Source of the DNA: Acidimicrobiaceae bacterium
GTDB taxonomy: Bacteria; Actinomycetota; Acidimicrobiia; Acidimicrobiales; RAAP-2
Assembly: GCA_025463285.1 (NCBI GenBank)
Contig: JAOBWI010000068.1
Location: forward strand, 1-38,573
DNA: 38,573 nucleotides
Reading direction: 5' to 3'
Both the position numbers and the translations under genes were made by a program. How positions within the stretch are numbered: the stretch's first letter is position 1; each line of letters starts with the position of its first letter. Below, piece by piece: positions 5,391 to 27,580 of the stretch. The notes under the pieces are model-generated. The model ran no database searches and was not told the origin of the DNA. It worked only from the letters and a program-made list of their open reading frames with translations.

Positions 5391-5959
5391 GTACCGAACG
5401 TACCTACGGACCAAGCGCGCTACTCACGCCGGCCAACTTGATGACCGGGTTTCGCCTCGTCGCGGCGCCCTTCTTTATCTACCTCCTCATCTTCTACCGG
5501 ATCTCGTGGTGGACCGTGGCCGTGGGTCTCTCGGTGGCGGCCTCGGACTACTTCGACGGCATCGTGGCTCGCCGCCACGGCACCACCACCTCGGGCGCCT
5601 TTCTCGACCCGCTGGCCGACAAGGTCATCGTGCTCGGCGGACTGTACGCGGTCATCGTCTCACGCCCCCACGGGGTGACGTTCTTCGTCGTTCCGGCGAT
5701 CATCATCACCCTGCGCGAGGTCGGCATGAGCGTCTACCGCGCCCGGGCCGCCCGCCACGGCGTGTCCATTCCCGCCAGTCGCTTGGCTAAGTGGAAGACC
5801 TTCGTACAGGACTGGGCCATCGGATTTACCGTCGTGCCCGTCACCGCCCACCACCCGGCTTTCGCCTTCGTGACCATCTGGCTCGCCGTGGTGCTGACCG
5901 TCTATACCGGTGTGCAGTACTACTACGCGGGCAAAAGAGTCGTCGCGCGTGCGAGTTGA
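5387..5959 (+). CDS. pgsA: CDP-diacylglycerol--glycerol-3-phosphate 3-phosphatidyltransferase
   Basis: 190 residues with several membrane helices. The CDP-alcohol phosphotransferase motif is intact: D54-x2-D57-G58-x2-A61-R62-x7-G70-x3-D74-x3-D78. The N-terminal LLTPANLMTGFRLVAAPFF segment and overall length match PgsA, which makes phosphatidylglycerol phosphate at the inner membrane face. Other CDP-alcohol transferases (phosphatidylinositol phosphate or cardiolipin synthases) share the motif. The rimO-pgsA-cinA order, common in actinobacteria near recA, favours PgsA. GTG start overlaps the rimO stop as GTGA, implying translational coupling. Its 3' end overlaps cinA by 11 nt. Confidence 0.9.
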   Translation: MSTERTYGPSALLTPANLMTGFRLVAAPFFIYLLIFYRISWWTVAVGLSVAASDYFDGIVARRHGTTTSGAFLDPLADKVIVLGGLYAVIVSRPHGVTFFVVPAIIITLREVGMSVYRARAARHGVSIPASRLAKWKTFVQDWAIGFTVVPVTAHHPAFAFVTIWLAVVLTVYTGVQYYYAGKRVVARAS

Positions 5960-7223
5960 GATTGTCGCCGTCGGCACCGAACTGCTCCTAGGGCAGATCC
6001 CCGACACCAACTCCCAGTGGCTGGGCGAGCGACTCGCGGCCAACGGCATCCCCTCGTACTTCCATCAACACGTGGGCGACAATCACCAACGTATCGTGCT
6101 GGCCTTTCGCACGGCGTTAGCGCGCAGCGACGCGATGATCGTCTGCGGCGGCCTCGGTCCCACCCAAGATGACATCACTCGCGCCGCGTTGGCCGAAGTG
6201 ATGAACGTTCCCCTTGATCGCGACGAGGCGATCGTGTCCACGATTCGCTCACTGTTCGAATCACGCGGTCGGTCCATGCCCGACAACAACCTGCTGCAGG
6301 CCGACGTACCGCGCGGCGCGACGATTATTCCTCAGACGCGAGGCACGGCCCCGGGACTCATCTGCAACGTCGGTCTCAAGGTGGTCTACGCGGTTCCCGG
6401 CGTGCCCTACGAGATGACCGACATGTTCGAACGCGCCGTTTTGCCCGACCTACTCCGCCGACAGCGCGAAGCGGGCGAGACGTCGGTCATTCGAAGCCGC
6501 GTTCTTCGCACGTGGGGGGCGAGTGAGTCCGCCCTGGCCGAGGCGGTGGCTGATCGCTTTGACGAACTGGAGAAGGGCGGGCGGGTCACCATTGCCTTTC
6601 TCGCCTCGGGCATCGAAGGCATCAAGGTCCGTCTCACCGCACGGGGCGACGATGACGACCACGCCCTGTCGATGCTCGTCCACGAAGAAGAAAAAGTGCG
6701 CGCACTGATCGAAGAGAAACTGGGCGACATCATCTTCGCCACCGACGATCAGTCGATGGAAGACGTGGTGGCCTCTCAACTGTCGTCTCGCGCTCTGACT
6801 CTGGCCGTCGCGGAGTCGCTGACGGGCGGTCTCATCGCCAGTCGACTGGTCAACGTCCCGGGCGCGTCGGCCTGGTTTCGCGGGGGCGTCGTGAGCTACG
6901 CCTCGCAAGTCAAGTTCGACGTGCTGGGCGTGCCCGAGGGGCCGGTCGTCAGCGGTCCGGCCGCCGAGGCTATGGCGCGGGGCGTGCGAGAATTACTGAA
7001 GTCCGATATCGGTCTGAGTGTCACCGGCGTGGCCGGGCCCGAGGAGCAAGATGGTCAGGTGCCCGGCACGGTCTTCGTGGGACTCAGCGTCGGCGAGAAC
7101 CTCACGCACAGCGCGCTTCGACTGCCGGGAGATCGACCGCGAATTCGCGCCTACAGCGCGATTAGTGCGCTCGACGTGTTGCGTCGCGCCCTCGAACGCC
7201 CCGAGTACACGCGAGCTAAATAG
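5949..7223 (+). CDS. cinA: CinA: molybdopterin-binding-like domain plus nicotinamide-nucleotide amidohydrolase
   Basis: 424 residues from GTG 5949, chosen because the family begins with RVEIVAVGTELLLG; the frame is open upstream inside pgsA. The N-terminal MoCF-type domain has GTELLLGQIPDTN and CGGLGPTQDDITR. The C-terminal CinA/PncC domain has AVAESLTGGLIASRL, FRGGVVSYASQVKFDVLGV and SVTGVAGPEEQDGQVPGTVFVGL. The C-terminal domain of the family deamidates nicotinamide mononucleotide to nicotinate mononucleotide for NAD recycling; the N-terminal domain can hydrolyse ADP-ribose in some members. Length is normal for full CinA. It completes the rimO-pgsA-cinA unit. recA follows about 1.4 kb later, with one serine hydrolase gene inserted between. 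Confidence 0.94.
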   Translation: MRVEIVAVGTELLLGQIPDTNSQWLGERLAANGIPSYFHQHVGDNHQRIVLAFRTALARSDAMIVCGGLGPTQDDITRAALAEVMNVPLDRDEAIVSTIRSLFESRGRSMPDNNLLQADVPRGATIIPQTRGTAPGLICNVGLKVVYAVPGVPYEMTDMFERAVLPDLLRRQREAGETSVIRSRVLRTWGASESALAEAVADRFDELEKGGRVTIAFLASGIEGIKVRLTARGDDDDHALSMLVHEEEKVRALIEEKLGDIIFATDDQSMEDVVASQLSSRALTLAVAESLTGGLIASRLVNVPGASAWFRGGVVSYASQVKFDVLGVPEGPVVSGPAAEAMARGVRELLKSDIGLSVTGVAGPEEQDGQVPGTVFVGLSVGENLTHSALRLPGDRPRIRAYSAISALDVLRRALERPEYTRAK

Positions 7224-15634: not shown

Positions 15635-16417
15635 CTAGATCCAACCCTGATCGCGGGCGATCTGTTCGACGTCCCCGATGCGCATGCCGGTGCGGTGCTG
15701 GAGGGTGCGAATGAGACCTCCCGCTTCGTAGAGCGACTCGTGCGTGCCGGTGTCGAGCCACGTGGTGGCGCGCGAGAGGACTTCGACACGAAGTTCGCCG
15801 AGCTCTAGGTACGCGTTGTTGAGGGCGGTGATCTCTAGTTCACCTCGAGCGCTGGGTGACAACAGCCTCGCGAACTCCGAGGCCCGTTCGTCGTAGAAGT
15901 AGATGCCGGGCACCGCGTAGCTGCTCTTGGGCGTGACGGGCTTTTCTTCGATGGAGTGCACGTGGCCGACGTCGTCAAACTCCACCACGCCGTAGGCCGA
16001 CGGATTACTCACCTGGTAGGCGAAGATGAGCGCTCCGTTAACGTCGGCGTTCTGTTGGAGATGCGTGCCGAGCCCGGGACCGTAGAAGAGGTTGTCGCCG
16101 AGAATCAGCGCGCACTTCTGGCCGTCTAGGAACTTTTCGCCCAGGATCAACGCTTCGGCCAGTCCGTTCGGTTGGTCTTGCACGACGTAGGAGATCTTGA
16201 CGCCGATCTGGGACCCGTCACCGAGCAGTCGGAAAAAGGCGTCTTGATCGTGGGGCGTGGTGATGAGAAGGATTTCGCGAAGCCCGCTCAACATCAACGT
16301 GCTAAGCGGGTAGAAAATCATCGGCTTGTCGTAGATCGGCAGCAGCTGCTTGGAGACCGCCCGGGTAATCGGGTGCAGGCGAGTACCGGTACCGCCCGCC
16401 AAGATGATTCCCTTCAC
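15635..16417 (-). CDS. rfbA: Glucose-1-phosphate thymidylyltransferase
   Basis: 260 residues. The N-terminal nucleotidyltransferase signature is complete: GIILAGGTGTRLHPITRAVSKQLLPIYDKPMI. Further family segments follow: ISYVVQDQPNGLAEAL, LILGDNLFYGPGL, VVEFDDVGHVHSIEEKP and WLDTGTHESLYEA. It joins dTTP and glucose-1-P into dTDP-glucose, the first step of dTDP-L-rhamnose synthesis. It is at the short end of the RmlA range (usually about 290). It is divergent from rfbB over a 49-bp gap. GTG start, 6 nt after TATACT, appears leaderless. Confidence 0.95.
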   Translation of the reverse strand: MKGIILAGGTGTRLHPITRAVSKQLLPIYDKPMIFYPLSTLMLSGLREILLITTPHDQDAFFRLLGDGSQIGVKISYVVQDQPNGLAEALILGEKFLDGQKCALILGDNLFYGPGLGTHLQQNADVNGALIFAYQVSNPSAYGVVEFDDVGHVHSIEEKPVTPKSSYAVPGIYFYDERASEFARLLSPSARGELEITALNNAYLELGELRVEVLSRATTWLDTGTHESLYEAGGLIRTLQHRTGMRIGDVEQIARDQGWI

Positions 16418-16423
16418 TCCATT

Positions 16424-16429
16424 AGTATA
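16424..16429 (-). promoter_or_regulatory. -10 element of a leaderless promoter for rfbA
   Basis: On the minus strand TATACT lies 6 nt before GTG 16417. It is the closest match to the consensus TATAAT among these promoters. Confidence 0.6.
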
Positions 16430-16466
16430 AGAAGTCTTCTAACCGCTTTCTAAAGGCCGGAGCGTT

Positions 16467-17444
16467 ATGCGCGTAGTGATTACTGGTGCGGCGGGCTTCA
16501 TCGGGTCTCGATTGAGCGAGCTGCTGGTCGCTAACGCCGAGCGACTGGGCTACGACGACATTGTCTTGTTGGACGCTCTCACCTACTCGGGCCGACTCGA
16601 GAACGTAGAGGCCGTCCTGCGCGATTCGCGCGTCTCGTTCATTCGCGGATCCATCACCGATCAACTCGTGACCGACGAAGTTCTGAGTGGCGCACACGCC
16701 GTCTTGCACCTGGCCGCCGAGAGCCACGTGGACCGTTCCATTACCGGTGCGCGACTCTTCTACCAGACGAACGTCATGGGGACCCAGCAGCTGTTAGAGA
16801 GTGCGCGCGCGACGGGGGTCGAGCGCTTCGTGCACGTCTCGACCGACGAGGTCTACGGCTCCATCGAGAGCGGCTCCTGGCTAGAAGATCACCTCCTCGC
16901 GCCGAACTCGCCGTACTCCTCGAGCAAGGCCGGGTCGGATCTGGCCGCCCTGGCTTATCAGCGCACCTACGGACTCAACGTTATGGTGACGCGCTGCTCT
17001 AACAACTATGGCCCTCGCCAGTTCCCGGAGAAGCTGATTCCGTTGTTCGTGACGAATCTCTTCGACGGCGTGAAGGTTCCTCTCTACGGTGACGGGCTCA
17101 ATGTTCGCGACTGGCTCTTCGTCGACGATCACTGTCGCGCACTGTTGGCCGTGCTCGAAGCGGGCCGGGCGGGCGAGATCTACAACATCGGCGGCGGCAC
17201 CGAGTTGACGAATCGCGAGATCACCCACATGATGCTCGAACTGTGCGGGAGCGACGAGTCCATGATCGAGCCGGTCGAGGATCGCCTGGGCCACGACCGC
17301 CGCTACAGCGTGGACTGGACCAAGATTCGCGACGAGTTGGGGTACCGGCCCGAAGTCGACTTCGAAGAGGGACTGGCCCGCACCGTGAAGTGGTATCGCG
17401 AAAACGAACCGTGGTGGCGCCCGCTGAAGGAGCGTGGCGCGTGA
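16467..17444 (+). CDS. rfbB: dTDP-glucose 4,6-dehydratase
   Basis: 325 residues, extended short-chain dehydrogenase fold. NAD-binding GAAGFIG is at 7-13. Catalytic residues: Thr126-Asp127-Glu128 (VSTDEVYG) and Tyr150-x3-Lys154 (SPYSSSKAGSD), followed by TRCSNNYGPRQFPEKLIPLF and the YGDGLNVRDWLFVDDH stretch. It converts dTDP-glucose to dTDP-4-keto-6-deoxyglucose. ATG has GGAG 5 nt before it, unlike the leaderless neighbours. The 3' end overlaps rfbC by 4 nt (GTGA), so the two are co-translated. Confidence 0.97.
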   Translation: MRVVITGAAGFIGSRLSELLVANAERLGYDDIVLLDALTYSGRLENVEAVLRDSRVSFIRGSITDQLVTDEVLSGAHAVLHLAAESHVDRSITGARLFYQTNVMGTQQLLESARATGVERFVHVSTDEVYGSIESGSWLEDHLLAPNSPYSSSKAGSDLAALAYQRTYGLNVMVTRCSNNYGPRQFPEKLIPLFVTNLFDGVKVPLYGDGLNVRDWLFVDDHCRALLAVLEAGRAGEIYNIGGGTELTNREITHMMLELCGSDESMIEPVEDRLGHDRRYSVDWTKIRDELGYRPEVDFEEGLARTVKWYRENEPWWRPLKERGA

Positions 17445-18013
17445 AGGTGAGCGAGCTCTCCATTGCCGGGGCGTACCTCATCGAGTCTCCGGTGTGGGGT
17501 GACGATCGAGGTTTCTTTCGCGAGTGGTTTAAGTTGAGCGACCTCGACGCCGAGAGTGTGGGGTTCCCAATTCAACAGGCCAACCTCTCCATGTCGCGCC
17601 GGGGCGTCATTCGGGGACTGCACTACTCGATTGCCCCCGAGGGACAGGCCAAGATCGTGACCTGCGCGTACGGTGAAGTCGTGGACGTGATCGTGGACGT
17701 GCGAATGGGATCCTCGACCTTCGGGCACCACGAAAAGATCCACCTGGCGGCCAACGAAGAGCACGCCGTGCTGGTGCCGAAGGGTGCGGCTCACGGCTTT
17801 TGCGTCACGAGTGAGTTGGCGGTGTTGACGTACCTTTTGTCCTCGCCCTTTAACGCTTCGCAGGAACTTGAGATCAACCCCTTCGACGAGGCCCTGGGTA
17901 TCGTGTGGCCCGTGACGGGCGAGCCGACTGTGAGCGACAAAGACGCCCGGGCGCCGACCCTCGCCGATCGTCTGCGTGACGGCAAACTGCCTCTGCACCT
18001 CGCCTCCTCCTAA
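17441..18013 (+). CDS. rfbC: dTDP-4-dehydrorhamnose 3,5-epimerase
   Basis: 190 residues from GTG 17441, which overlaps the rfbB stop; the frame is open upstream inside rfbB. RmlC features: DDRGFFREWFKLSDL near the N-terminus, QANLSMSRRGVIRGLHY with the catalytic His, KIVTCAYGEVVDVIVDVR, and VPKGAAHGFCVTSELAVLTYLLSSPFN with the expected Tyr region. It epimerises dTDP-4-keto-6-deoxyglucose at C3 and C5 for rhamnose. The reductase rfbD is not next to it, so the final step must be encoded elsewhere or the product is a different 6-deoxysugar. Confidence 0.94.
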   Translation: MKVSELSIAGAYLIESPVWGDDRGFFREWFKLSDLDAESVGFPIQQANLSMSRRGVIRGLHYSIAPEGQAKIVTCAYGEVVDVIVDVRMGSSTFGHHEKIHLAANEEHAVLVPKGAAHGFCVTSELAVLTYLLSSPFNASQELEINPFDEALGIVWPVTGEPTVSDKDARAPTLADRLRDGKLPLHLASS

Positions 18014-18034: not shown

Positions 18035-18040
18035 TATCGT
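18035..18040 (+). promoter_or_regulatory. -10 element of a leaderless promoter for deoC and the nucleoside operon
   Basis: TATCGT lies 7 nt before GTG 18048. It overlaps an earlier in-frame GTG (18039), which argues that 18048 is the true start. No ribosome binding site is present. Confidence 0.5.
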
Positions 18041-18047
18041 GGGCCAG

Positions 18048-19040
18048 GTGAGCACCTCCCCACTACGCCTGGTGACGAGCGAGGACCGAGGCGTGCAGCT
18101 ACCGAAGACGAAGTCTCCGCTAGTCATCGAGTCAGAGGCGCAGTTGCGCGCCTTTCTCTCGGGGCTCTCCGGGGTGGACGCCGTGGGCGCGGAGGCGCGC
18201 GCCGCGAAGCTGGCCACGCGCTCACTCAAGAAATCGACCAAACTCGCCGCCCTGGACTTGGCCATTTCTATGGTCGACCTCACGACGCTCGAAGGGGCCG
18301 ACACCCCGGGACGGGTGCGATCGCTCTGCGCCAAGGCCGCGCGACCCGACGCCCGTGACCTCGACGTTCCCCACGCCGCGGCGGTCTGTGTCTACCCCGA
18401 CCTGGTGGGCGTGGCTCGCGAGGCCCTCGGGGCCTCGCCGGTCAAGGTGGCGGCCGTGGCCACCGCTTTTCCGTCGGGCCGGGCGTCGATGAACGTGAAG
18501 CTGTTGGACGTTCGCGAAGCCATCGAGGCCGGCGCTGACGAGATCGACATGGTGATCGACCGCGGGGCCTTTCTCTCGGGTCGCGTGGGGCAGGTCTTCG
18601 ATGAGATTGTGGCGGTCAAAGAGGTTTGCGGTCTCGTCCACCTCAAAGTGATCCTGGAGACGGGCGAGTTAGTGACCTACGACAACGCCCGCAAGGCGAG
18701 TTGGCTCGCCATGCTGGGAGGGGCCGACTTCATAAAGACCTCCACGGGCAAAGTCGCCACCTCGGCGACGTTGCCGCACGCCCTGGTGATGGTAGAAGCC
18801 GTTCGCGACTTCGCCGAGACCACGGGCCGCCTGGTGGGCGTCAAGGTGGCCGGTGGCATCAGAACCTCGAAAGACGCGCTGCGCTACCTCGTGGTGGTCA
18901 ACGAGACGGTGGGCTCGGCCTGGCTGACCCCGGATCTCTTTCGCTTCGGCGCCTCGTCGCTCTTGAACGACCTCTTAATGCAGCGACTGAAGCAATCTCG
19001 TGGCACCTACGTGCGTGCCGATGAGTTCAGCGCGGACTGA
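18048..19040 (+). CDS. deoC: Deoxyribose-phosphate aldolase
   Basis: 330 residues from GTG 18048. The class I aldolase TIM barrel carries VCVYPDLVGVAREAL, AVATAFPSGRASMNVKL, EIDMVIDRGAFLSG, LKVILETGEL, and the Schiff-base lysine in GADFIKTSTGKV, then GVKVAGGIRTSKDALRYLVVV. It splits 2-deoxyribose-5-P into glyceraldehyde-3-P and acetaldehyde. At ~330 residues it is the longer DeoC form (the short form is about 220), with an N-terminal extension of some 70 residues. It leads the chain deoC-aldh-aldh-punA-pgm, all with 1-8 nt overlaps, so acetaldehyde formed here is presumably handed to the next product. Confidence 0.95.
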   Translation: MSTSPLRLVTSEDRGVQLPKTKSPLVIESEAQLRAFLSGLSGVDAVGAEARAAKLATRSLKKSTKLAALDLAISMVDLTTLEGADTPGRVRSLCAKAARPDARDLDVPHAAAVCVYPDLVGVAREALGASPVKVAAVATAFPSGRASMNVKLLDVREAIEAGADEIDMVIDRGAFLSGRVGQVFDEIVAVKEVCGLVHLKVILETGELVTYDNARKASWLAMLGGADFIKTSTGKVATSATLPHALVMVEAVRDFAETTGRLVGVKVAGGIRTSKDALRYLVVVNETVGSAWLTPDLFRFGASSLLNDLLMQRLKQSRGTYVRADEFSAD

Positions 19041-20503
19041 TGAGCGACGATCTCACCAAATCTCAGCTCGGTTCGCTGACCTACGACGCGGCGCCGGAGT
19101 CCGCGTCGATCGCCCATCTGCAGCCCGCCTACGGCCTCTTCATCAACGGCGAGTTCACCGACCCGTCGTCGCACCAGTCCTTCGAAACCCTCAACCCGGC
19201 CAACGAAACGCCGCTGGCCCACGTGGCCCTGGCCTCTCACGCGGACGTTGATCGTGCCGTGACGGCGGCCCGCACGGCCTACGACACGGTCTGGTCCAAG
19301 ACCAGCGGAGCGCAGCGGGCCAAGTACCTCTTTCGCATTGCGCGACTCATCCAAGAGCGCTCCCGAGAACTCGCGGTCGTCGAAACGCTCGACAACGGCA
19401 AGCCGATCCGCGAGTCACGCGACGTGGACGTTCCTCTGGCCGCCGCGCACTTCTTCTACTACGCCGGCTGGGCCGACAAGCTGGACTACGCCGGCTACGG
19501 CGTGAACCCCCGGCCCTTGGGCGTGGCCGGTCAGATTATTCCCTGGAACTTTCCGCTCCTCATGGCCGCGTGGAAGTTGGCCCCGGCCCTGGCCGCGGGC
19601 AATACCTGCGTCTTGAAGCCGGCCGAGACCACGCCGCTGTCGGCGCTGTTGCTGGCGGAGATTCTCCAACAGGCGCAGTTGCCGCCGGGCGTGGTGAACA
19701 TTCTCACCGGCGACGGCACGAGTGGGGCGGCCCTGGTCGAGCATCCCGACGTGAACAAGATCGCCTTCACCGGCTCGACCGAAGTGGGGCGACTCATCCA
19801 AGAACGGGTGGCGTCGAGTAGAAAGCACCTCACCCTCGAGTTGGGTGGCAAGGGTGCCAATATCGTCTTCGAGGACGCCCCGGTGGACGAGATGATCGAA
19901 GGGATCATCGACGGCATCTTCTTTAATCAAGGGCACGTCTGCTGCGCCGGCTCGCGCCTCTTGGTCCAAGAGTCCGTGGCTGACGAAGTGCTGCGCCGCT
20001 TGATTCGCCGGGTCGATCAACTGCGCGTCGGCGATCCCCTCGATAAGAACACTGACGTCGGGGCCATCAACTCCGCCGCGCAGCTGGCCCGGATTCAAGA
20101 GCTCAGCGACTTCGGCGAGGTTGAAGGCGCTACGCGCTACACGAGTACCTGCGCGCTGCCCGACCGGGGGTACTGGTTCGCGCCGACGGTCTTCGCCGAC
20201 GTCTCGCAGTCCCACCGCATCGCCCGCGAAGAGATCTTCGGACCGGTCTTGTCGGTGCTGACCTTTCGTACGCCCGAGGAAGCCGTAGCCAAGGCCAACA
20301 ACACCAACTACGGCCTGGCCTGTGGGGTGTGGAGCGAGAAGGGCTCTCGCACGCTCTGGGTGGCGCAACGACTGAGGGCCGGCGTGATCTGGGCCAATAC
20401 CTACAACAAGTTCGATCCCACCAGCCCCTTCGGCGGGGTGCGGGAGTCGGGCTTTGGGCGCGAGGGCGGACGTCACGGTCTGGAGGCCTACCTCGATGTC
20501 TGA
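19040..20503 (+). CDS. Aldehyde dehydrogenase (likely acetaldehyde-oxidising, ALDH16-like catalytic part)
   Basis: 487 residues, the full length of an NAD(P)+ aldehyde dehydrogenase. Catalytic Cys301 (FFNQGHVCCAGSR), general base Glu267 (LTLELGGKGANIVF), Asn170 (IIPWNFPLLMAAWKL) and Lys193 (VLKPAET) are all present, with FTGSTEVG for NAD binding. ATG overlaps the deoC TGA by one base (TGATG). It probably oxidises the acetaldehyde released by DeoC to acetate. Together with the next, non-catalytic ALDH-like gene it parallels the two halves of ALDH16 proteins, in which a catalytic domain is fused to a pseudo-ALDH domain. That comparison is from memory. Confidence 0.9.
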   Translation: MSDDLTKSQLGSLTYDAAPESASIAHLQPAYGLFINGEFTDPSSHQSFETLNPANETPLAHVALASHADVDRAVTAARTAYDTVWSKTSGAQRAKYLFRIARLIQERSRELAVVETLDNGKPIRESRDVDVPLAAAHFFYYAGWADKLDYAGYGVNPRPLGVAGQIIPWNFPLLMAAWKLAPALAAGNTCVLKPAETTPLSALLLAEILQQAQLPPGVVNILTGDGTSGAALVEHPDVNKIAFTGSTEVGRLIQERVASSRKHLTLELGGKGANIVFEDAPVDEMIEGIIDGIFFNQGHVCCAGSRLLVQESVADEVLRRLIRRVDQLRVGDPLDKNTDVGAINSAAQLARIQELSDFGEVEGATRYTSTCALPDRGYWFAPTVFADVSQSHRIAREEIFGPVLSVLTFRTPEEAVAKANNTNYGLACGVWSEKGSRTLWVAQRLRAGVIWANTYNKFDPTSPFGGVRESGFGREGGRHGLEAYLDV

Positions 20504-21347
20504 TCGCCTCGATGTTCGAAAGACCTACAAGCTGCTGATTGGGGGCGCCTTTCCTCGCTCCGAATCGGGTCGCAGCTACGAAGTCACCTCGGCCGACGGC
20601 GCCTTTTTGGCCAACGCCGCCCAAGGATCGCGCAAGGACGTTCGCGACGCCGTGGTCGCGGCGCGCGGCGCGCAGTCCGCGTGGTGGGCGCAGAGTGCCT
20701 ATAACCGCGGACAGGTCATCTACCGCTTGGCGGAGATGGCCGAGTCGCGCCGCGACGAGTTACGCGAGCACGTGGCTCTGGCCGAGGGAGTCAAGGCGAA
20801 AGACGCGAAGGCCACCGTGGCGCGCTCTATCGATCGCATCGTCTGGTACGCCGGATGGACCGACAAGATCGCTCAAATTCTCGGCTCGTCCAATCCCGTG
20901 GCCGGTCCCTACTTCAACTTCTCCGTACCGGTGCCGAGCGGCGTGGTCGGCGTCATCGCCGATCAGGACTCCTCGCTCGAGGCGTTCGTCGACTCCGTGC
21001 TCGCCCCGATCGCGGTCGGTAACTCGGTGGTGGTGCTCGCTAGTGAGCGCCGTCCCACCCCGTCGATTCTGGTGAGCGAGATGACCGCGACCGCGGACTT
21101 TCCCCGTGGCGTTGTGAACGTGCTCACGGGTTTCACCGGCGAGCTGGCGCCCACCCTGGCCGGGCACGAGGACGTCGATGGTCTGGACTTAGCGGGCGTC
21201 GACGACGCCTTCGGGGACGACTTGGCCGCGCTGGCGGCCGGTTCGATCAAGCGGGTCCTGCGGCCCGACCACGCGAGAGAGACGTCGCTTCTTCGATTAC
21301 GCGCTTTCGTTGAAACCTCCACCGTGTGGCACACGATCGGTCAGTAG
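20496..21347 (+). CDS. Truncated, non-catalytic aldehyde-dehydrogenase-like protein (ALDH16 C-domain-like)
   Basis: 283 residues from ATG 20496, overlapping the preceding ALDH by 8 nt. It begins like an ALDH (YKLLIGGAFPRSESGRSYEV), keeps helices with NRGQVIYRLAEMAESRRDEL and the segment PSGVVGVIADQDSSLEAFVDSVLAPIAVGNSVVVLASERRP, then GVVNVLTGF. There is no catalytic Cys domain and no Asn/Lys/Glu catalytic set. It ends in a short segment (SIKRVLRP...VWHTIGQ) instead. The internal frame is clean and the gene is in a coupled operon, so it looks like a maintained protein, not debris. By resemblance to the C-terminal half of ALDH16 I infer a structural partner of the upstream enzyme. Alternative: a decaying duplicate. 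Confidence 0.75.
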   Translation: MSDRLDVRKTYKLLIGGAFPRSESGRSYEVTSADGAFLANAAQGSRKDVRDAVVAARGAQSAWWAQSAYNRGQVIYRLAEMAESRRDELREHVALAEGVKAKDAKATVARSIDRIVWYAGWTDKIAQILGSSNPVAGPYFNFSVPVPSGVVGVIADQDSSLEAFVDSVLAPIAVGNSVVVLASERRPTPSILVSEMTATADFPRGVVNVLTGFTGELAPTLAGHEDVDGLDLAGVDDAFGDDLAALAAGSIKRVLRPDHARETSLLRLRAFVETSTVWHTIGQ

Positions 21348-22165
21348 TGACCAACCCCTACGAACTCGCTCGCGTCGCCGCCGACGAGTTGCGAGATCAC
21401 AGTGGCGTCGACGAGTACGACGTGGCGGTCGTCTTAGGTTCGGGTTGGAAAGAAGGGGTCGTGGCTCTCGGCGAGCCCTCCAGCGTGGTCTCGACCTCCT
21501 CGCTCAGCGGATTCGTCGCGCCCACGGTGGCGGGACACCACGGCGAGATCCTCTCGATTGAGCTCGATGGCACCAGGATTGCCCTCGTCGCGGGGCGGGT
21601 GCATCTCTACGAGGGCAACTCCGCTCACCACGTGGTGCACCCCGTGCGTACGGTGATCGCGGCCGGGGCGAAAAAAATCGTCCTGACCAACGCCGCTGGC
21701 GGACTCGATCCGAGCGTGGCACCCGGCACGGTGGTCGTTATACGCGATCATCTCAACTTAACGGCGACGTCGCCCATGGAAGGGCCCTCTCCCCCCGAGG
21801 GATACGGTTCGCGGTTCGTGGACTTGAGCGATCTCTACAGTGCGCGACTGCGCTCGATCGCCCGCGACGTCGAGCCGGCCTTGAGTGAGGGCGTGTACGT
21901 CGGTCTGCGTGGTCCGAACTACGAGACCCCCGCCGAGATCGAGATGGTGCGCCGACTGGGGGCCACGCTGGTGGGCATGTCGACCGTCTTGGAGGCCATC
22001 GCCGCTCGTCACCTCGAGGCCGACGTGCTCGGACTCAGTCTGGTGACGAACTTCGCCGCCGGCGTCGCCGACGGGCCGTTGAATCACCTAGACGTCCTCG
22101 AGACCGGGCTGAGTGCCTCCGACCGACTCGGCGCTCTCCTGGCCCGAGTGCTGAGCGCTCTGTGA
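21347..22165 (+). CDS. punA: Purine nucleoside phosphorylase
   Basis: 272 residues from GTG 21347, overlapping the previous stop by one base (TAGTG). Features of trimeric PNP: VVLGSGWKEGV with the phosphate-binding Ser, the GRVHLYEG motif (phosphate Arg and His), VLTNAAGGLDPSVAPG, GLRGPNYETPAEIEMVRRLGATLVGMSTVLEA and the purine-binding Asn in LVTNFAAGV. It phosphorolyses inosine, guanosine and their deoxy forms to the base plus (deoxy)ribose-1-P. The strand usually reads MSTVPE; here Leu replaces Pro, a mild oddity. Linked with pgm and deoC, it feeds pentose phosphates to the aldolase. Confidence 0.94.
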   Translation: MTNPYELARVAADELRDHSGVDEYDVAVVLGSGWKEGVVALGEPSSVVSTSSLSGFVAPTVAGHHGEILSIELDGTRIALVAGRVHLYEGNSAHHVVHPVRTVIAAGAKKIVLTNAAGGLDPSVAPGTVVVIRDHLNLTATSPMEGPSPPEGYGSRFVDLSDLYSARLRSIARDVEPALSEGVYVGLRGPNYETPAEIEMVRRLGATLVGMSTVLEAIAARHLEADVLGLSLVTNFAAGVADGPLNHLDVLETGLSASDRLGALLARVLSAL

Positions 22166-23811
22166 ACCCGTCGTTGGTGGCAGAGGTGGAGCGCTGGATC
22201 GCCGGCGATCCCGACGACGATGATCGCGCCACGTTGCGCCAACTTCTTGACGACCGCGACGAAACCGAACTTCATCGACGCTTCGATCACCCGCTGACCT
22301 TTGGCACGGCCGGCCTACGTGGTCCCGAGATGGCTGGGCCCGCGGGAATGAATCGCGCTACCGTGCGACGCACGACGTTCGGCGTCTTGTCGTGGCTGAA
22401 GGAAAAAGGTCTCGATGGCTCACGAGGAGTGGTGGTCGGACGTGACGCACGACTCGGTTCCGAGCGCTTTAACGACGAGGCGGTGTCGGTGCTTTTAGGC
22501 GGCGGCGTGGCCGTCTACGAGATGCCCGGTGCACTCCCGACGCCGTTTGTTCCCTACTGCGTCAAGGCGCTGGGCGCCGTCGCGGGCGTCATGATCACCG
22601 CCAGTCACAACCCGCCCCAGGACAACGGGTACAAGCTCTACTCGAGTGACGGCGCCCAGATCATTCCGCCCGACGACGAGATCATTGAACGCTGGGCTAG
22701 TTCGCCGGGCGAGGTGATCTTGGCGGATCGCTCGACACCCGGGCACTCCTACATCTCTGAGTCGCTGTTCGAGGAGTACCGGCGTCATTTCGTGGCTCGC
22801 TTTGGGGTGGGTCGTAGCGACCTGCGCATCACCTACACGCCACTGCACGGGGTCGGGGGCGCCGTGATGGCCGAGCTGTTCGCCGAGGCGGGTTTTGACT
22901 CGGTGTCGCTGGTCAACGAACAGTTCGCGCCCGACGGAACCTTCCCGACGTTGCCCTTTCCCAATCCTGAAGAGCCCGGTGCCCTGGACTTGGCAATCGC
23001 CACCGCCACCGCCCACGACGCCGAGCTCATCATCGCCAACGATCCCGACGCCGACCGCCTGGGCGCCGCCGTTCGCACCGCGAGCGGGTGGCGGGTGTTG
23101 CGAGGCGATGAGATTGGCTGGCTACTGGCCTCGTCCCTTCTCGCGGAGATCAAAGAGAAGGGGGAGACCGTCGCCACCACCATCGTGTCCTCCTCCCTGC
23201 TCGAGGTGATGGCGGCGAGTGCGGGTGTTCCCTGCGTCACGACGTTGACGGGATTTAAATGGATCTCTCGCGCCGCGGGAGAGGGCGTGCTCGGCTTCGG
23301 TTACGAAGAGGCCTTGGGCTTCGCCGTTGATCCGTGCGTCGCCGACAAGGACGGCCTGTCGGCGGCGTTGGCCTTGAGCTCGTTGGCCCACTCACTCGCC
23401 CTGGAGGGTGTCACGTTGATAGAGCGCCTGGATGAGTTAGAGGAGCGATTCGGCGTGCACGCCACCGCGCAGCTTTCCCTTCGAGCGGGTGGGCCCGAGG
23501 ACCTCCCCAAGATTCGAAGCGCGGTGGAGCGGCTGGTGCGCGAGCCGCCCTCAGTGCTCGGCGACCTTGACGTGAGCGAGGTCGTCGAGCTCAATCGAGG
23601 GTGGCGCGGGCTCTCGCCAACCGAGGGCGTCGTGCTGGTGCTCCAGGCGATGGGTCGCGTGATCGTTCGCCCGTCGGGGACCGAGGCCAAGCTGAAGGCC
23701 TACCTAGAGATCACCCCGCCGCGCGACGGGTCGTTGGCGCACCAGCGTGCGGCGGCCCAGGAGCGGTTGGACGCCGTCAAAGAGAACCTCGCGACGCTGC
23801 TAGTTCTCTAA
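22162..23811 (+). CDS. Phosphohexomutase-family enzyme, PGM2-like; probable phosphopentomutase
   Basis: 549 residues, the long alpha-D-phosphohexomutase form. Phosphoserine Ser148 sits in TASHNPPQDNGYKLY, the Mg2+ loop D294-x-D296-x-D298 in NDPDADRLGAAV, the sugar loop in GYEEALGF and the phosphate loop in RPSGTEAKLKAYLE. FGTAGLRGPEMAGP near the N-terminus and FPTLPFPNPEEPGALDLA mark the PGM2 subfamily, some members of which interconvert (deoxy)ribose 1- and 5-phosphates. No DeoB is in the locus, and punA and deoA yield 1-phosphates while DeoC needs a 5-phosphate, so I infer a phosphopentomutase. Phosphoglucomutase activity is the alternative. GTGA overlap with punA; the 3' end overlaps convergent add by 12 bp. 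Confidence 0.88.
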   Translation: MNPSLVAEVERWIAGDPDDDDRATLRQLLDDRDETELHRRFDHPLTFGTAGLRGPEMAGPAGMNRATVRRTTFGVLSWLKEKGLDGSRGVVVGRDARLGSERFNDEAVSVLLGGGVAVYEMPGALPTPFVPYCVKALGAVAGVMITASHNPPQDNGYKLYSSDGAQIIPPDDEIIERWASSPGEVILADRSTPGHSYISESLFEEYRRHFVARFGVGRSDLRITYTPLHGVGGAVMAELFAEAGFDSVSLVNEQFAPDGTFPTLPFPNPEEPGALDLAIATATAHDAELIIANDPDADRLGAAVRTASGWRVLRGDEIGWLLASSLLAEIKEKGETVATTIVSSSLLEVMAASAGVPCVTTLTGFKWISRAAGEGVLGFGYEEALGFAVDPCVADKDGLSAALALSSLAHSLALEGVTLIERLDELEERFGVHATAQLSLRAGGPEDLPKIRSAVERLVREPPSVLGDLDVSEVVELNRGWRGLSPTEGVVLVLQAMGRVIVRPSGTEAKLKAYLEITPPRDGSLAHQRAAAQERLDAVKENLATLLVL

Positions 23812-24897
23812 CTCGCGCAGCGCCGCGTACCCCGGTTTGATGATGGTGTTGATCATGTGGAGCCGCTGGTCGAACTCGTAGAAGGTGCTCTTGGCGGCGT
23901 TCAGCGTGAGCCACTCCATATCGTCCAGGTTCCAGCCAAAGGTGGCGGCGCAGACCTTGAACTCTCCGCTCAGCGTGATGCCACTCATTAATCGATTATC
24001 GGTGTTGAGGGTGACGCGAAAGCGCAGCCGCTTTAGCACGTCGATCGGGTGCGTGGCAATCGAGGCGGCCGCCCCGGTGTGGACGTTCGACGTCGGACAG
24101 ACCTCTAAGGGAATGCGCCGGTCCCGGACGTAGTTGGCGAGACGCCCGAGGCGAGGCTGCCCGTCCACGTCGTGAATATCGTCCACGATGCGAACCCCGT
24201 GACCGAGTCGCTCCGCGTTGCAGAACTGCACCGCCTCCCAGATCGAGGGTAGTCCGAAGGCCTCACCCGCGTGGATGGTGAGGTGAAAGTCCTCCCGCTG
24301 GATCAAGTGGAAGGCGCGCAGCTGCCTGGTCGGAGGGAAACCGTCCTCGGGGCCGGCGATGTCGAATCCGCAGACGCCCTCGTCGCGAAAGTCGACCGCC
24401 AACTGGGCGATCGTCTCGCTCCGTGTCGCTTGACGCATGGCCGAAAGAATGGTGCGCACGACGATGCGATGTCCCTCGTTGGCCGCCTCCTTAGCGCCGA
24501 GTGCGAATCCGTCCAGTACCGCGCGCACCACGTCGGACAAGGTGAGCCCACCGTCGAGGTGTTGCTCGGGGGCGAAGCGAACCTCGGCGTAGATCACGCC
24601 GTCGCGCGCTAGGTCGATGGCGCTCTCGGCGGCCACGCGTTCCAGTTGATCTCTCGTCTGCATCACGGCAATGGTGTGAGCGAAGCCCGAGAGATAACCG
24701 ACCAGGTCGCTGCCGGGGGCGTCCACCACAAACCAGGACCGCAGTTCCTCGGGATCGGTGGTGGGCAGTGCGCGGTAGCCGCTCTCGTGGGCCAGCTCGA
24801 GGACCGTTTCGGGACGAAGACCACCGTCTAAGTGCTCGTGCAAGAGGACCTTGGGCGCTCGTCGAATGGTATCGAGCGTCAAGGTCGCGGCGGTCAT
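23800..24897 (-). CDS. add: Adenosine deaminase
   Basis: 365 residues. The zinc-TIM-barrel amidohydrolase residues are all visible: H20-x-H22 (LLHEHLDGG), H209 with catalytic Glu212 (TIHAGEAFG), H233 (ERLGHGVRI) and D300 (TLNTDNRLMSG). The NTDNRLMS ending is the actinobacterial form. It turns (deoxy)adenosine into (deoxy)inosine, which PunA can then split. ATG 24897 follows TAGCCT by 6 nt, so add has its own leaderless promoter although it lies 28 nt after deoA on the same strand. Its last 12 bases overlap the end of the convergent mutase gene. Confidence 0.95.
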   Translation of the reverse strand: MTAATLTLDTIRRAPKVLLHEHLDGGLRPETVLELAHESGYRALPTTDPEELRSWFVVDAPGSDLVGYLSGFAHTIAVMQTRDQLERVAAESAIDLARDGVIYAEVRFAPEQHLDGGLTLSDVVRAVLDGFALGAKEAANEGHRIVVRTILSAMRQATRSETIAQLAVDFRDEGVCGFDIAGPEDGFPPTRQLRAFHLIQREDFHLTIHAGEAFGLPSIWEAVQFCNAERLGHGVRIVDDIHDVDGQPRLGRLANYVRDRRIPLEVCPTSNVHTGAAASIATHPIDVLKRLRFRVTLNTDNRLMSGITLSGEFKVCAATFGWNLDDMEWLTLNAAKSTFYEFDQRLHMINTIIKPGYAALRELEN

Positions 24898-24925: not shown

Positions 24926-26209
24926 TTACTCTCGCACGATGTTCGCTACCACGGGCCCGCCTGTCGAGGGGTCCTCATCGTCGATGGAGACGGCGTCGGC
25001 GATCGCCTCGAGGCCCACGGCCAGATGCGCGTCGTCGTCGGCGTGCAGCTCGAACAGAGGCTGACCGGCCTCCACGCGCTCGTGCTCGCGCACCAGACAG
25101 AGCACTCCGGCGGCCGCACTGACCTGGTCGTCTTTTCGCGCGCGGCCCGCGCCGAGGCGCCACGCGGCCACGCCAACCCGGAGTGCGTCGACCCGTGTCA
25201 CGTAGCCGGCGCGCGGCGCGTCGACGACCTGACGACGCGCGGCCACGGGTAGCGTGGCGTCGGGGTCGCCCCCTTGGGCGCTGATCATCGCTCGGTAGGT
25301 CTCGTAGGCCGACCCGTCGTCCAACGTCGCGGCGGGATCGACGTCCAGCCCCACCAACTCCAACATCAGTCGAGCCAATGAGAGCGTGAGATCGCGAACG
25401 TCGCTCGGACCACCGCCGCGAAGAACGTCGAGCGACTCGGTCACTTCGAGAGCGTTACCCACGGCGCGACCGAGGGGCGTACTCATCGTGGTGAGCCGCG
25501 CGACGGTCTTCACGCCGTGCCCGAGACCGATCTGGACCATGGTGTGCGCCAACACCTCCGCCTTCGCCAGATCCGTGATGAAGGCACCCGCACCGAACTT
25601 CACGTCGAGCACCAGCGCGGACGTTCCCTCGGCGATCTTTTTCGACATGATCGACGAGGAGATGAGGGGAATCGACGCGACGGTCGCGGTCACGTCGCGC
25701 AGCGCGTAGAGTCGACGATCGAGCGGCGCGAGTCCCTCGCCGGCGGCGCAGATCACCGCGCCCACCGTGTCCAGTTGTTCGACGATCTCTTGGTTGGTCA
25801 GTCGAGCGCGCCAGCCCGGTATCGATTCGAGCTTGTCGAGCGTCCCGCCGGTGTGTCCGAGCCCTCGACCGGAAAGTTGCGGCACCGCCGCCCCGCACGC
25901 CGCGACCAGCGGCACGAGTATGAGGGAGATCTTGTCGCCGACGCCGCCGGTGGAGTGCTTGTCCACCGAGGGGCGCGAGAGCCCCGAGAGGTCGAGTCGC
26001 TCGCCCGAGGCGATTGCTGTCTCGGTCCACGTATTGAGTTCGTCGCTGGTGAGTCCGTTGAAGAAAATCGCCATGAGGAGAGCCGACATCTGCTCGTCGG
26101 CCACCTCACCGCGCTGGTAAGCCTCGAGCACCCACGCGATCGACTCGTCGTTCAGCACCCCACCATCGCGTTTGGTGGCGATGACGTCCACCGCGGACAG
26201 AGCGCTCAC
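24926..26209 (-). CDS. deoA: Thymidine (pyrimidine-nucleoside) phosphorylase
   Basis: 427 residues, normal length. Family segments: DVIATKRDGGVLNDESIAWVLEAYQRGEVADEQMSALLMAIFFNGL, the phosphate-binding VDKHSTGGVGDKISLILVPLVAACG, the signature SGRGLGHTGGTLDKLESIPG, and SSSIMSKKIAEGTSALVLDVKFG. It phosphorolyses thymidine, deoxyuridine and possibly uridine to the base and (deoxy)ribose-1-P. GTG start overlaps the cdd stop (GTGA), so cdd and deoA are co-translated: Cdd makes (deoxy)uridine and DeoA cleaves it. Bifunctional pyrimidine-nucleoside phosphorylase (Pdp) cannot be excluded by eye. Confidence 0.94.
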   Translation of the reverse strand: MSALSAVDVIATKRDGGVLNDESIAWVLEAYQRGEVADEQMSALLMAIFFNGLTSDELNTWTETAIASGERLDLSGLSRPSVDKHSTGGVGDKISLILVPLVAACGAAVPQLSGRGLGHTGGTLDKLESIPGWRARLTNQEIVEQLDTVGAVICAAGEGLAPLDRRLYALRDVTATVASIPLISSSIMSKKIAEGTSALVLDVKFGAGAFITDLAKAEVLAHTMVQIGLGHGVKTVARLTTMSTPLGRAVGNALEVTESLDVLRGGGPSDVRDLTLSLARLMLELVGLDVDPAATLDDGSAYETYRAMISAQGGDPDATLPVAARRQVVDAPRAGYVTRVDALRVGVAAWRLGAGRARKDDQVSAAAGVLCLVREHERVEAGQPLFELHADDDAHLAVGLEAIADAVSIDDEDPSTGGPVVANIVRE

Positions 26210-26625
26210 GGCGATCGCCGACTACCTAGATCCTCAGGCCCAAAGGCACCCGGTAGGAGTTCGCCCAGCCTGGTCGGCTCTTTTCCCGCACCGGCGTCGA
26301 CCAACAACTCGGCGCCGCCGTGTTCGTAGAGGACCTGTCGGCACCGCCCGCACGGTGCGAGGGGCCCGCCGTCCGCGGCCACGATCGCGACGGCCACTAT
26401 CCGTCCACCGCCCTGACGAATGAGATCACTGACCAGTGAACACTCGGCGCACAGCGTGAGGCCGTAACTGGCGTTCTCCACGTTCGATCCGACGACGTGC
26501 GACCCGCCGCCGCAGAGTGCCGCCGCGCCGACTCGAAGACGAGAGTACGGAGCGTAGGAACGAGTGGCCGCCTCGCGCGCTCGAGCGCGCAGCAGCGCCC
26601 AGTCAATGTCGGAGGCTGCGCTCAC
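26206..26625 (-). CDS. cdd: Cytidine deaminase
   Basis: 139 residues from GTG 26625; the frame is open further upstream across psuG, but the promoter fixes this start. Tetrameric-type CDA: N48-V-E50 substrate contact (SNVENASYG), the zinc/catalytic pair C59-A-E61 and zinc cysteines C92 and C95 (PCGRCRQVL). It deaminates cytidine and deoxycytidine to (deoxy)uridine. The C-terminal ~15 residues after LLPGAFGPEDL are a short tail. It is first in the cdd-deoA pair and divergent from psuG with overlapping promoters. Confidence 0.95.
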   Translation of the reverse strand: MSAASDIDWALLRARAREAATRSYAPYSRLRVGAAALCGGGSHVVGSNVENASYGLTLCAECSLVSDLIRQGGGRIVAVAIVAADGGPLAPCGRCRQVLYEHGGAELLVDAGAGKEPTRLGELLPGAFGPEDLGSRRSP

Positions 26626-26631
26626 GACCTC

Positions 26632-26641
26632 ACTGTACACT
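26632..26641. promoter_or_regulatory. Overlapping divergent -10 elements for cdd and psuG
   Basis: Within ACTGTACACT, TACAGT (minus strand, 26632-26637) lies 6 nt before the cdd GTG, and TACACT (plus strand, 26636-26641) lies 9 nt before the psuG GTG. The two hexamers share two base pairs, so RNA polymerase could not hold both at once. Neither gene has a ribosome binding site. Confidence 0.45.
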
Positions 26642-26650
26642 TTGCGCTGC

Positions 26651-27580
26651 GTGAACAACTTTCGATTTTCGCCCGTCGTCATCAGCGACGAAGTGGCCAC
26701 CGCGATTCGAGAAGGTCGTGGTGTCGTCGCACTCGAGACCACCATCGTGGTGCACGGCCTGCCCTCGCCGATCAACTTTGACGTGGCGCGCGAGTGCGAA
26801 GCCTCGGTTCGCAAGGGTGGTGCGATCCCGGCCACCATCGGCCTCCTGGAAGGTCGGGTGGTGGTGGGACTGAGTGAGAGCGAACTGAACGCACTGGCCG
26901 ATCCGGGTCGTCACGCCGCCAAGTTCTCCTCCCGTGATCTCGGCGTGGCACTGGCCACCGGTACCGACGGCGCGACCACCGTGGCGGGAACGATCACCAT
27001 CGCTCGTCGCGTCGGCATCAGCGTGATGGCGACGGGGGGCCTGGGAGGGGTGCACCGCGACGCGCACGACACGTTCGACGAGTCCGCCGACTTGACCGCG
27101 CTCTCGCGCACCTCGGCGGTGGTGGTGGCCTCGGGCGTTAAGTCCATCCTCGACATTGGCGCGACCTTGGAGCGCCTCGACACCCTCGGCGTACCGGTGG
27201 TGGGATACCAAACGCGCCAGTTCCCCGGCTTTTACCTCCGTGACAGTGGCTTCAGCCTCGACTGGTCGGTGGCCAGCGCCGAAGAAGCGGCGGCCACGTT
27301 TCTACGCCATCGCGAGTTCTCCTCGAGCGGACTGCTGGTCGCGAATCCGGTGGCCGCGAAGAAGGAACTCGATCGAGCGATGCACGACGCCGCCCTCGAC
27401 AGCGCGCTGGCGACGGTGCAACTCGAAGGCCTGAGTGGCAAGGAGGTGACGCCCGCTCTCTTGTCGGAGTTCGCTCGACACACCTCGGGCGTCAGCGTGC
27501 AGGTGAACCGTGACCTGGTGGTGGCCAACGCCGAACTCGCGGGCGAGATCGCCACGTCGCTCGCGCTCGCGTTGGCGTGA
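26651..27580 (+). CDS. psuG: Pseudouridine-5'-phosphate glycosidase
   Basis: 309 residues from GTG 26651, chosen because the family begins near FSPVVISDEVATAI; the frame stays open upstream inside cdd. Hallmarks: GVVALETTIVVHGLP with Glu29, ATIGLLEGRVVVGLS, FSSRDLGVALATGTDGATTVAGT, MATGGLGGVHRDAHDTFDESADLTALSRT, and YQTRQFPGFYLRDSGF. It cleaves the C-glycosidic bond of pseudouridine 5'-phosphate to uracil and ribose-5-P. It is GTGA-coupled to the kinase that makes its substrate. Such pairs recycle pseudouridine from RNA breakdown. Confidence 0.96.
   Translation: MNNFRFSPVVISDEVATAIREGRGVVALETTIVVHGLPSPINFDVARECEASVRKGGAIPATIGLLEGRVVVGLSESELNALADPGRHAAKFSSRDLGVALATGTDGATTVAGTITIARRVGISVMATGGLGGVHRDAHDTFDESADLTALSRTSAVVVASGVKSILDIGATLERLDTLGVPVVGYQTRQFPGFYLRDSGFSLDWSVASAEEAAATFLRHREFSSSGLLVANPVAAKKELDRAMHDAALDSALATVQLEGLSGKEVTPALLSEFARHTSGVSVQVNRDLVVANAELAGEIATSLALALA

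Follow-up and report, generated by a model that had tools for sequence, protein, structure and literature searches.

The window analysed here is the whole stretch of 38,573 nucleotides that forms contig JAOBWI010000068.1 of an Acidimicrobiaceae bacterium (assembly GCA_025463285.1). At positions 18039-23811 its plus strand harbours, in this order, deoC, a gene for a catalytic aldehyde dehydrogenase (ALDH), a small ALDH gene, a purine nucleoside phosphorylase (PNP) family gene and a phosphosugar mutase family gene. Judged from sequence comparisons, the small gene encodes a conserved protein of 283 amino acids that is homologous to the C-terminal domain of ALDH16, and the matching catalytic half is encoded by the gene before it. 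The genes and features on which this description is based are the following:

18039..19040, plus strand: deoC, deoxyribose-phosphate aldolase, 333 amino acids, with an N-terminal extension of about 70 residues (TIGR00126, 178 bits, curated cut-off 117; PF01791)
19040..20503, plus strand: catalytic ALDH16-type subunit, 487 amino acids (PF00171, positions 2-457 of 461)
19469..19516, plus strand: shortened stretch W144-P159 of the catalytic subunit, without the oligomerisation hairpin (14 residues between the anchors)
19940..19942, plus strand: codon of the catalytic cysteine C301, the first Cys of GHVCC (Cys column of the joint alignment)
20496..20503, plus strand: overlap of the two subunit genes, ATGTCTGA, 8 bases (from the sequence)
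20496..21347, plus strand: pseudo-ALDH subunit, 283 amino acids, ATG start, homologue of the ALDH16 C-terminal domain (profile, structure and hhalign comparisons)
20886..20936, plus strand: hairpin of the pseudo-subunit, strands 131-135 and 139-147 (AlphaFold2 model; alignment anchors)
21309..21335, plus strand: C-terminal strand 272-280 of the pseudo-subunit, ETSTVWHTI (AlphaFold2 model; structural alignments; hhalign)

The genes of this group are in direct contact with each other. deoC and the catalytic ALDH gene overlap by one base (TGATG), and the catalytic and the small gene overlap by eight (ATGTCTGA, 20496-20503). For the PNP family gene two start codons are conceivable, the GTG at 21347, which would create a 1-base overlap with the small gene (TAGTG), or the one at 21326. 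An earlier note on this DNA, made from the letters and their translations, had described the small gene as an intact reading frame overlapping both neighbours. This is what we find, the contact with the PNP gene being one base if the GTG start is used. The same note regarded the encoded protein as a truncated ALDH devoid of the catalytic Cys domain and of the Asn/Lys/Glu set, which agrees with the domain content and the alignment. The Pfam Aldedh match of the small protein is limited to profile positions 9-232 of 461, and the protein therefore has no catalytic domain and no catalytic cysteine. In a joint alignment of 39 split pairs, five fused ALDH16 proteins and 23 ordinary ALDHs, the columns of the ALDH2-type Lys192 and of the general base Glu268 contain other residues in all 44 pseudo-domains (39 split, 5 fused), and Asn169 is retained in 2 of the 39 split and in none of the five fused ones. 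The catalytic partners in the split pairs have the Asn and the Lys in 38 of 39 cases and the Glu and the catalytic Cys in all 39; this Cys is present in all five fused catalytic halves and all 23 ordinary ALDHs as well. The term truncated is only partly appropriate, since the catalytic domain is lost but the C-terminal oligomerisation strand, which in ordinary ALDHs lies beyond that domain, is retained. An AlphaFold2 model of the pseudo-subunit, with a mean predicted local distance difference test score (pLDDT) of 90.5, contains both the hairpin and this last strand, and it superposes on full-length ALDHs over approximately 270 residues up to their C-terminal end, skipping the catalytic domain. 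Pfam labels the small protein only as 'Aldehyde dehydrogenase family', and of the 34 NCBIfam models which it matched, the 25 shown all stayed below their cut-offs. Since family models fail to separate this protein from the enzymes, genome annotations probably count an extra ALDH which is not an enzyme.

The assignment of the two proteins to ALDH16 is based on several comparisons. The best match of the catalytic subunit in the PDB is to residues 9-474 of LsALDH16 from Loktanella sp. (PDB 6MVR, 6MVS, 6MVT and 6MVU), with 550 bits as compared to 428 for the next family, while the small protein has its best match to the C-terminal domain of the same enzyme (residues 500-763). In line with the proposed resemblance to this domain, a profile of 46 small proteins matched the C-terminal domain of 6MVR with 250 bits and the next family with 146 bits, and among the 60 matches listed of 234, ALDH16 was the only one aligned through the C-terminal tail of the profile. 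When profiles were compared with hhalign, the pseudo-subunit aligned with the five fused C-terminal domains over 277 columns reaching the last residue (1.4e-66), and with five ordinary ALDHs of the same genome over 227 columns excluding the tail (1.4e-26). Comparison with known ALDH16 structures, which had been proposed as a check, led to the same result: with Foldseek the pseudo-subunit model fitted 6MVR with a template modelling (TM) score of 0.90 over 284 columns, second by expectation value (E) and, of the 50 rows shown, the one that covers the model most fully. With a second structural aligner 6MVR was not among the top 50 rows for this model, where the Z values were tied.

The phylogenetic trees also place both proteins with ALDH16. 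Split and fused pseudo-domains together form one clade apart from ordinary ALDHs and from the catalytic halves (support 100; 100/100 in a second tree), and split and fused catalytic halves likewise form one clade (100). The pair thus comprises a catalytic half of the ALDH16 clade, a C-terminal pseudo-ALDH domain and the catalytic cysteine, but instead of a single polypeptide there are two frames with an 8-base overlap. Since the halves are in separate frames, we class the pair as a split variant working like ALDH16 and not as a standard member.

Beyond the window, the small gene is common within the genus. It was found in 32 of the 37 genomes of the genus, the window's genome included, and the copies of the relatives are 61-82% identical to it, three of them (in G004, G011 and G017) being cut by contig ends. 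Of the five genomes lacking a small-gene match, three show no hit for deoC above the family cut-off, the fourth has deoC and a catalytic gene running into the contig end, and the fifth carries a remnant of deoC and the small gene. In this remnant (locus L054, 5136-5672; genome G027, contig C21) the start of deoC (residues 4-138) is joined to the last part of the pseudo-ALDH gene (residues 233-283). Between the two the catalytic ALDH is gone and the phosphorylase and mutase genes are kept, so that the module may have been lost by one deletion. The small gene is also kept in another family of the class sample (f43), whose assembled genomes are 0.6-1.1 Mb in size.

In 296 genomes sampled evenly across the phylum (E up to 1e-45 for the small gene and up to 1e-165 for the catalytic gene), the small gene was detected in 71 genomes, the catalytic gene in 69 and both in 68. 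In the three genomes with the pseudo-ALDH only, the catalytic gene adjoins and is cut by the contig end; in the single genome with the catalytic gene only, this gene runs off the contig before the position of the small gene. The pairs are on the same contig and strand in 65 of 68 cases, the other three being on different contigs, and the profile matches in the same-contig pairs are at most 256 bases apart in 64 of 65 and 1415 bases apart in one.

The gene order was then compared in 97 loci, comprising the 80 best of at least 588 confirmed relatives from a scan of species genomes and 17 others. Distant forms are therefore under-represented in this set, and loci from different sources may repeat a species. 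Most of the 80 best relatives come from records titled as actinobacteria. In 96 of the 97 loci each half has a gene of its own; the remaining locus is cut. deoC lies upstream in 88 of the 96, and the flank is too short in the other eight. The distance between the deoC match and the ALDH match is at most 112 bases in 84 of the 88 loci and 488-1892 bases in four. When the nearest start codon is used, the subunit genes overlap by 1-11 bases in 78 of the 96 loci, by eight bases in 37. The gene order described in the earlier note, with the two ALDH genes directly after deoC, is thus found far beyond the window, and the split pair is a widespread actinobacterial variant. No fused form was detected in Actinomycetota among the 96 readable loci. 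Several long open frames, at L047, L210-L216 and L221, belong to these loci and are separate genes. The phosphorylase and/or mutase genes are located upstream of deoC, and not after the pseudo-ALDH gene, in L085, L091, L098, L102, L108, L111 and L114. Since their position varies among actinobacteria, deoC, the ALDH gene and the pseudo-ALDH gene are the stable core. Two bins carrying the pair, L136 ('Acidobacteria bacterium') and L142 ('Bifidobacterium breve'), have titles which may be wrong; in the trees L136 is placed among actinobacterial rows. In L106 (about 4588-6005, Fodinicola feengrottensis) the catalytic gene matches as two overlapping pieces and has a long branch, while the pseudo-subunit is intact; the anomaly is a frameshift or a sequencing error.

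The missing catalytic domain and residues could also mean that an ALDH gene was duplicated in tandem and that the small gene is the decaying copy. We consider the probability of this to be negligible. The listed small-gene matches of relatives contain no internal stop codons, and the long open frame is conserved across many families. A recent duplication of the neighbouring ALDH gene was ruled out, because pseudo-domains and catalytic halves are in separate clades. Further, the small gene is under purifying selection. Across the window and 17 loci close to it, the small gene has a median ratio of nonsynonymous to synonymous substitution rates (dN/dS) of 0.186, calculated from those 99 of 153 pairs in which dS is <1.5. 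The corresponding medians are 0.102 for the catalytic gene, 0.144 for deoC, 0.183 for the phosphorylase gene and 0.258 for the mutase gene. The small gene, with a value close to that of the adjoining phosphorylase gene, evolves as a working gene of the group. Of the signs of decay which the earlier note had named as refuting its view, frequent loss or stop codons in relatives, stop codons are thus lacking in the listed matches.

Single-chain relatives were found in plasmid records of Alpha- and Betaproteobacteria, where the fused ALDH16 has approximately 780-795 residues. It is located directly after deoC in all five loci with a readable upstream side. Four of these are annotated (Marivivens, Sinorhizobium meliloti, Rhizobium and Caballeronia), and for the Paracoccus locus, which is from an unannotated record, the position was revealed by tblastn; a sixth locus, in Ponticoccus, is cut by the record end. 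In a search with the C-terminal domain, the 60 matches listed of 155 records comprised Nonomuraea with the split form, and all other organisms were Proteobacteria. Fused genes in Proteobacteria are also found among ribokinase, RbsD/FucU or ATP-binding cassette (ABC) transporter genes. A survey of fused and split forms beside deoC, as the earlier note had proposed, thus reveals the split form in Actinomycetota and the fused form in Proteobacteria, both after deoC. As to the name split ALDH16 used in that note, the two-gene form is borne out, while the evolutionary direction implied by the word split is left unsettled by the trees. In the catalytic tree the split rows and the fused rows are each on one side of a branch (96 and 100), and in the pseudo-domain trees the split rows are on one side of a branch with weak support (65; 89/61). 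The fused sequences in these trees are all from Proteobacteria, and neither the catalytic nor the pseudo-domain trees settle whether ALDH16 was split or a pair was fused.

The alignment revealed which parts each half has kept. The stretch that holds the oligomerisation hairpin comprises 12-14 residues in 37 of the 39 split catalytic halves (18 and 23 residues in L098 and L219) and in all five fused catalytic halves, as compared to 18-30 residues in all 23 ordinary ALDHs, which come from the genome of the window and from other genomes of the same order and served as the yardstick for hairpin and tail. In the pseudo-domains the same stretch has 25 residues in all 39 split proteins and 22 in the five fused ones. 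At the C-terminus, the catalytic subunit of the window ends at GLEAYLDV, where ordinary ALDHs continue into the last strand, and this strand is found instead at the end of the pseudo-subunit (ETSTVWHTI). A lysine-centred motif of the last strand, which was picked after inspection of the alignment, is present in 1 of 39 split catalytic tails and 15 of 23 ordinary tails; among the pseudo-domains, 27 of the 39 split and all five fused ones have it. The catalytic chain is thus without the hairpin and, as a rule, without the C-terminal strand, and the pseudo-chain has both and is without the catalytic domain. According to the review PMC8160307, the tertiary contacts within ALDH16 imitate the quaternary contacts seen in other ALDHs. 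Based on this idea, on the complementary loss and on the existence of a one-chain form, we propose that the pseudo-subunit supplies hairpin and strand, and would thus provide its parts to the catalytic subunit.

We therefore favour the view, which we hold to be probable, that the two genes encode a heteromeric ALDH16 acting on the acetaldehyde released by DeoC. The first subunit would perform aldehyde oxidation dependent on nicotinamide adenine dinucleotide (NAD), and the second, non-catalytic subunit would contribute the dimerisation hairpin and the C-terminal strand, as the C-terminal domain may do in the single-chain fused ALDH16. The overlap of the genes could keep the production of the two subunits in step. 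The heteromer is expected to be obligate, with formation of a complex, activity depending on the partner and coupled translation. The products of DeoC are acetaldehyde and glyceraldehyde 3-phosphate, as stated in PMC6365646. DeoC converts deoxyribose 5-phosphate to these two compounds and the heteromer would convert acetaldehyde to acetate, so that deoxynucleosides might be used without aldehyde damage. Given the steady position after deoC, removal of acetaldehyde by the adjoining dehydrogenase is the simplest reading; the gene neighbourhood is what suggests acetaldehyde as the substrate.

Several observations weigh against this proposal. The hairpin stretches of L098 and L219 fall in the ordinary range. 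The catalytic tails vary, extending 14-20 residues past the reference Arg in 32 of 39 proteins and further in seven, compared with 19-38 residues in ordinary ALDHs, and the catalytic subunit modelled alone gave an only fair model (pLDDT 78.8). Hairpin and tail of the pseudo-subunit exceed the average conservation, but only moderately (8% and 22% of same-length windows are equally conserved), and the most conserved of the pseudo-subunit regions tested are the N-terminal region 9-28 and the helix 113-124. Since these are far more conserved than hairpin and tail, other surfaces matter at least as much. At the level of the pathway, deoC (TIGR00126, E up to 1e-20) is present in 234 of the 296 genomes of the phylum, far above the count of the pair, which is present in 68; most DeoC proteins therefore work without the dehydrogenase pair. 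The assignment of the substrate, finally, is a deduction from adjacency.

The conserved N-terminal region and helix could bind something else, and together with the separation of the two genes in Actinomycetota this would suit a pseudo-ALDH that is a separate regulator, chaperone or scaffold, tethering for example the dehydrogenase to DeoC, next to a self-sufficient catalytic subunit. We think this improbable, since the single-chain form in Proteobacteria argues for a structural partner and the hairpin stretch is short in the catalytic halves of split and fused forms alike. Moreover, in the sole catalytic-only genome among the 296 the gene runs off the contig end. A real heteromer with a main substrate other than the acetaldehyde of DeoC is rather unlikely in our opinion, although ALDHs are often broad in specificity, the substrate was assigned by adjacency, and the ribokinase, RbsD/FucU and ABC transporter genes near fused genes may indicate other sugars. 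The four loci in which 488-1892 bases separate the deoC and ALDH matches would also suit such an enzyme. On the other side, each of the 88 loci whose flank is long enough has deoC upstream, at a distance of at most 112 bases in 84 of them, and so do the five fused loci. Among the five genomes of the genus in which the small gene was not matched, four are without a complete deoC, and in the remaining one the catalytic gene is cut by the contig end.

The wider surroundings of the pair comprise the following further genes:

21347..22165 (alternative start 21326), plus strand: purine nucleoside phosphorylase family protein (PF01048)
22162..23811, plus strand: phosphoglucomutase/phosphomannomutase family protein (PF02878-PF02880, PF00408)
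23800..24897, minus strand: adenosine deaminase family protein (PF00962)
24926..26209, minus strand: pyrimidine/thymidine phosphorylase family protein (PF00591, PF02885, PF07831)
26206..26838, minus strand: cytidine deaminase family protein (PF00383, PF08211)

With deoC, a nucleoside phosphorylase and a mutase gene, the group has the composition of a deo (deoxynucleoside catabolism) gene group, and the phosphoglucomutase/phosphomannomutase family protein is possibly the phosphopentomutase of the deoxynucleoside pathway. On the minus strand beyond the mutase gene are the adenosine deaminase, pyrimidine phosphorylase and cytidine deaminase family genes. Residues 1 to about 70 of DeoC (18039-18260) lie outside the PDB matches, which begin at residue 68 or later, and a long deoC (about 317-335 amino acids) is annotated beside fused ALDH16 genes, too. 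Immediately upstream of deoC, at 15635-18013, there are genes resembling those for the synthesis of deoxythymidine diphosphate (dTDP) sugars, the epimerase gene being recognised by PF00908 and the other two by eye. Thymidine nucleotides connect the dTDP-sugar and deo gene groups, perhaps by chance.

ALDH16 and its structure were already known. The split form, its spread in actinobacteria, the location behind deoC common to split and fused genes, and the complementary loss seem to be new; we found no description of a split ALDH16 or of a link between ALDH16 and deoC in the open-access papers searched, subscription papers being mostly outside the search. The natural two-gene form is important, because with it the extra domain can be included, left out or exchanged and no protein has to be cut, and so its function can be tested directly. 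Further, since split and fused genes alike constantly follow deoC, acetaldehyde becomes a likely physiological substrate of bacterial ALDH16. It is tempting to speculate, though we rate this as doubtful, that ALDH16 at its root was a two-protein acetaldehyde dehydrogenase dedicated to DeoC, composed of a catalytic ALDH which had abandoned its oligomerisation parts and another ALDH which had abandoned the catalytic domain, each half being useless alone, and that the proteobacterial fused form and, by extension, the animal pseudoenzyme ALDH16A1 descend from a fusion. If this were true, the ancient link with nucleoside catabolism might have a bearing on the association reported between ALDH16A1 and gout.

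Among known systems, the Loktanella ALDH16 is the closest; its catalytic half and its C-terminal pseudo-domain are each matched end to end by one of the two proteins. In related fused proteins the hairpin stretch of the catalytic half is equally short, and their genes also follow deoC. The Loktanella enzyme differs in being one chain of 767 residues, whereas here two overlapping genes exist without a linker. Its C-terminal domain, reportedly described by Liu and Tanner in 2019, is said to consist of a Rossmann fold with a protruding flap. Pairs of the DmpFG type, in which an aldolase makes acetaldehyde and the neighbouring dehydrogenase removes it, follow the same logic as DeoC and the proposed heteromer, but their dehydrogenase belongs to a different, acylating family. 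Human ALDH16A1 shares the named family ALDH16, which the reviews PMC8160307 and PMC10650815 present as unusual within the superfamily, since it has an additional C-terminal domain and its human form is inactive. The human protein is called a pseudoenzyme that has lost the catalytic cysteine, while in the split pair the catalytic half is complete; the two are likened by description. Ordinary ALDHs, such as ALDH1/2 and betaine aldehyde dehydrogenase, share the fold of the pseudo-subunit and the sequence family of both proteins. They are homo-oligomers, as described in PMC8160307, with cofactor, catalytic and oligomerisation parts in each chain, whereas here these parts are divided between two.

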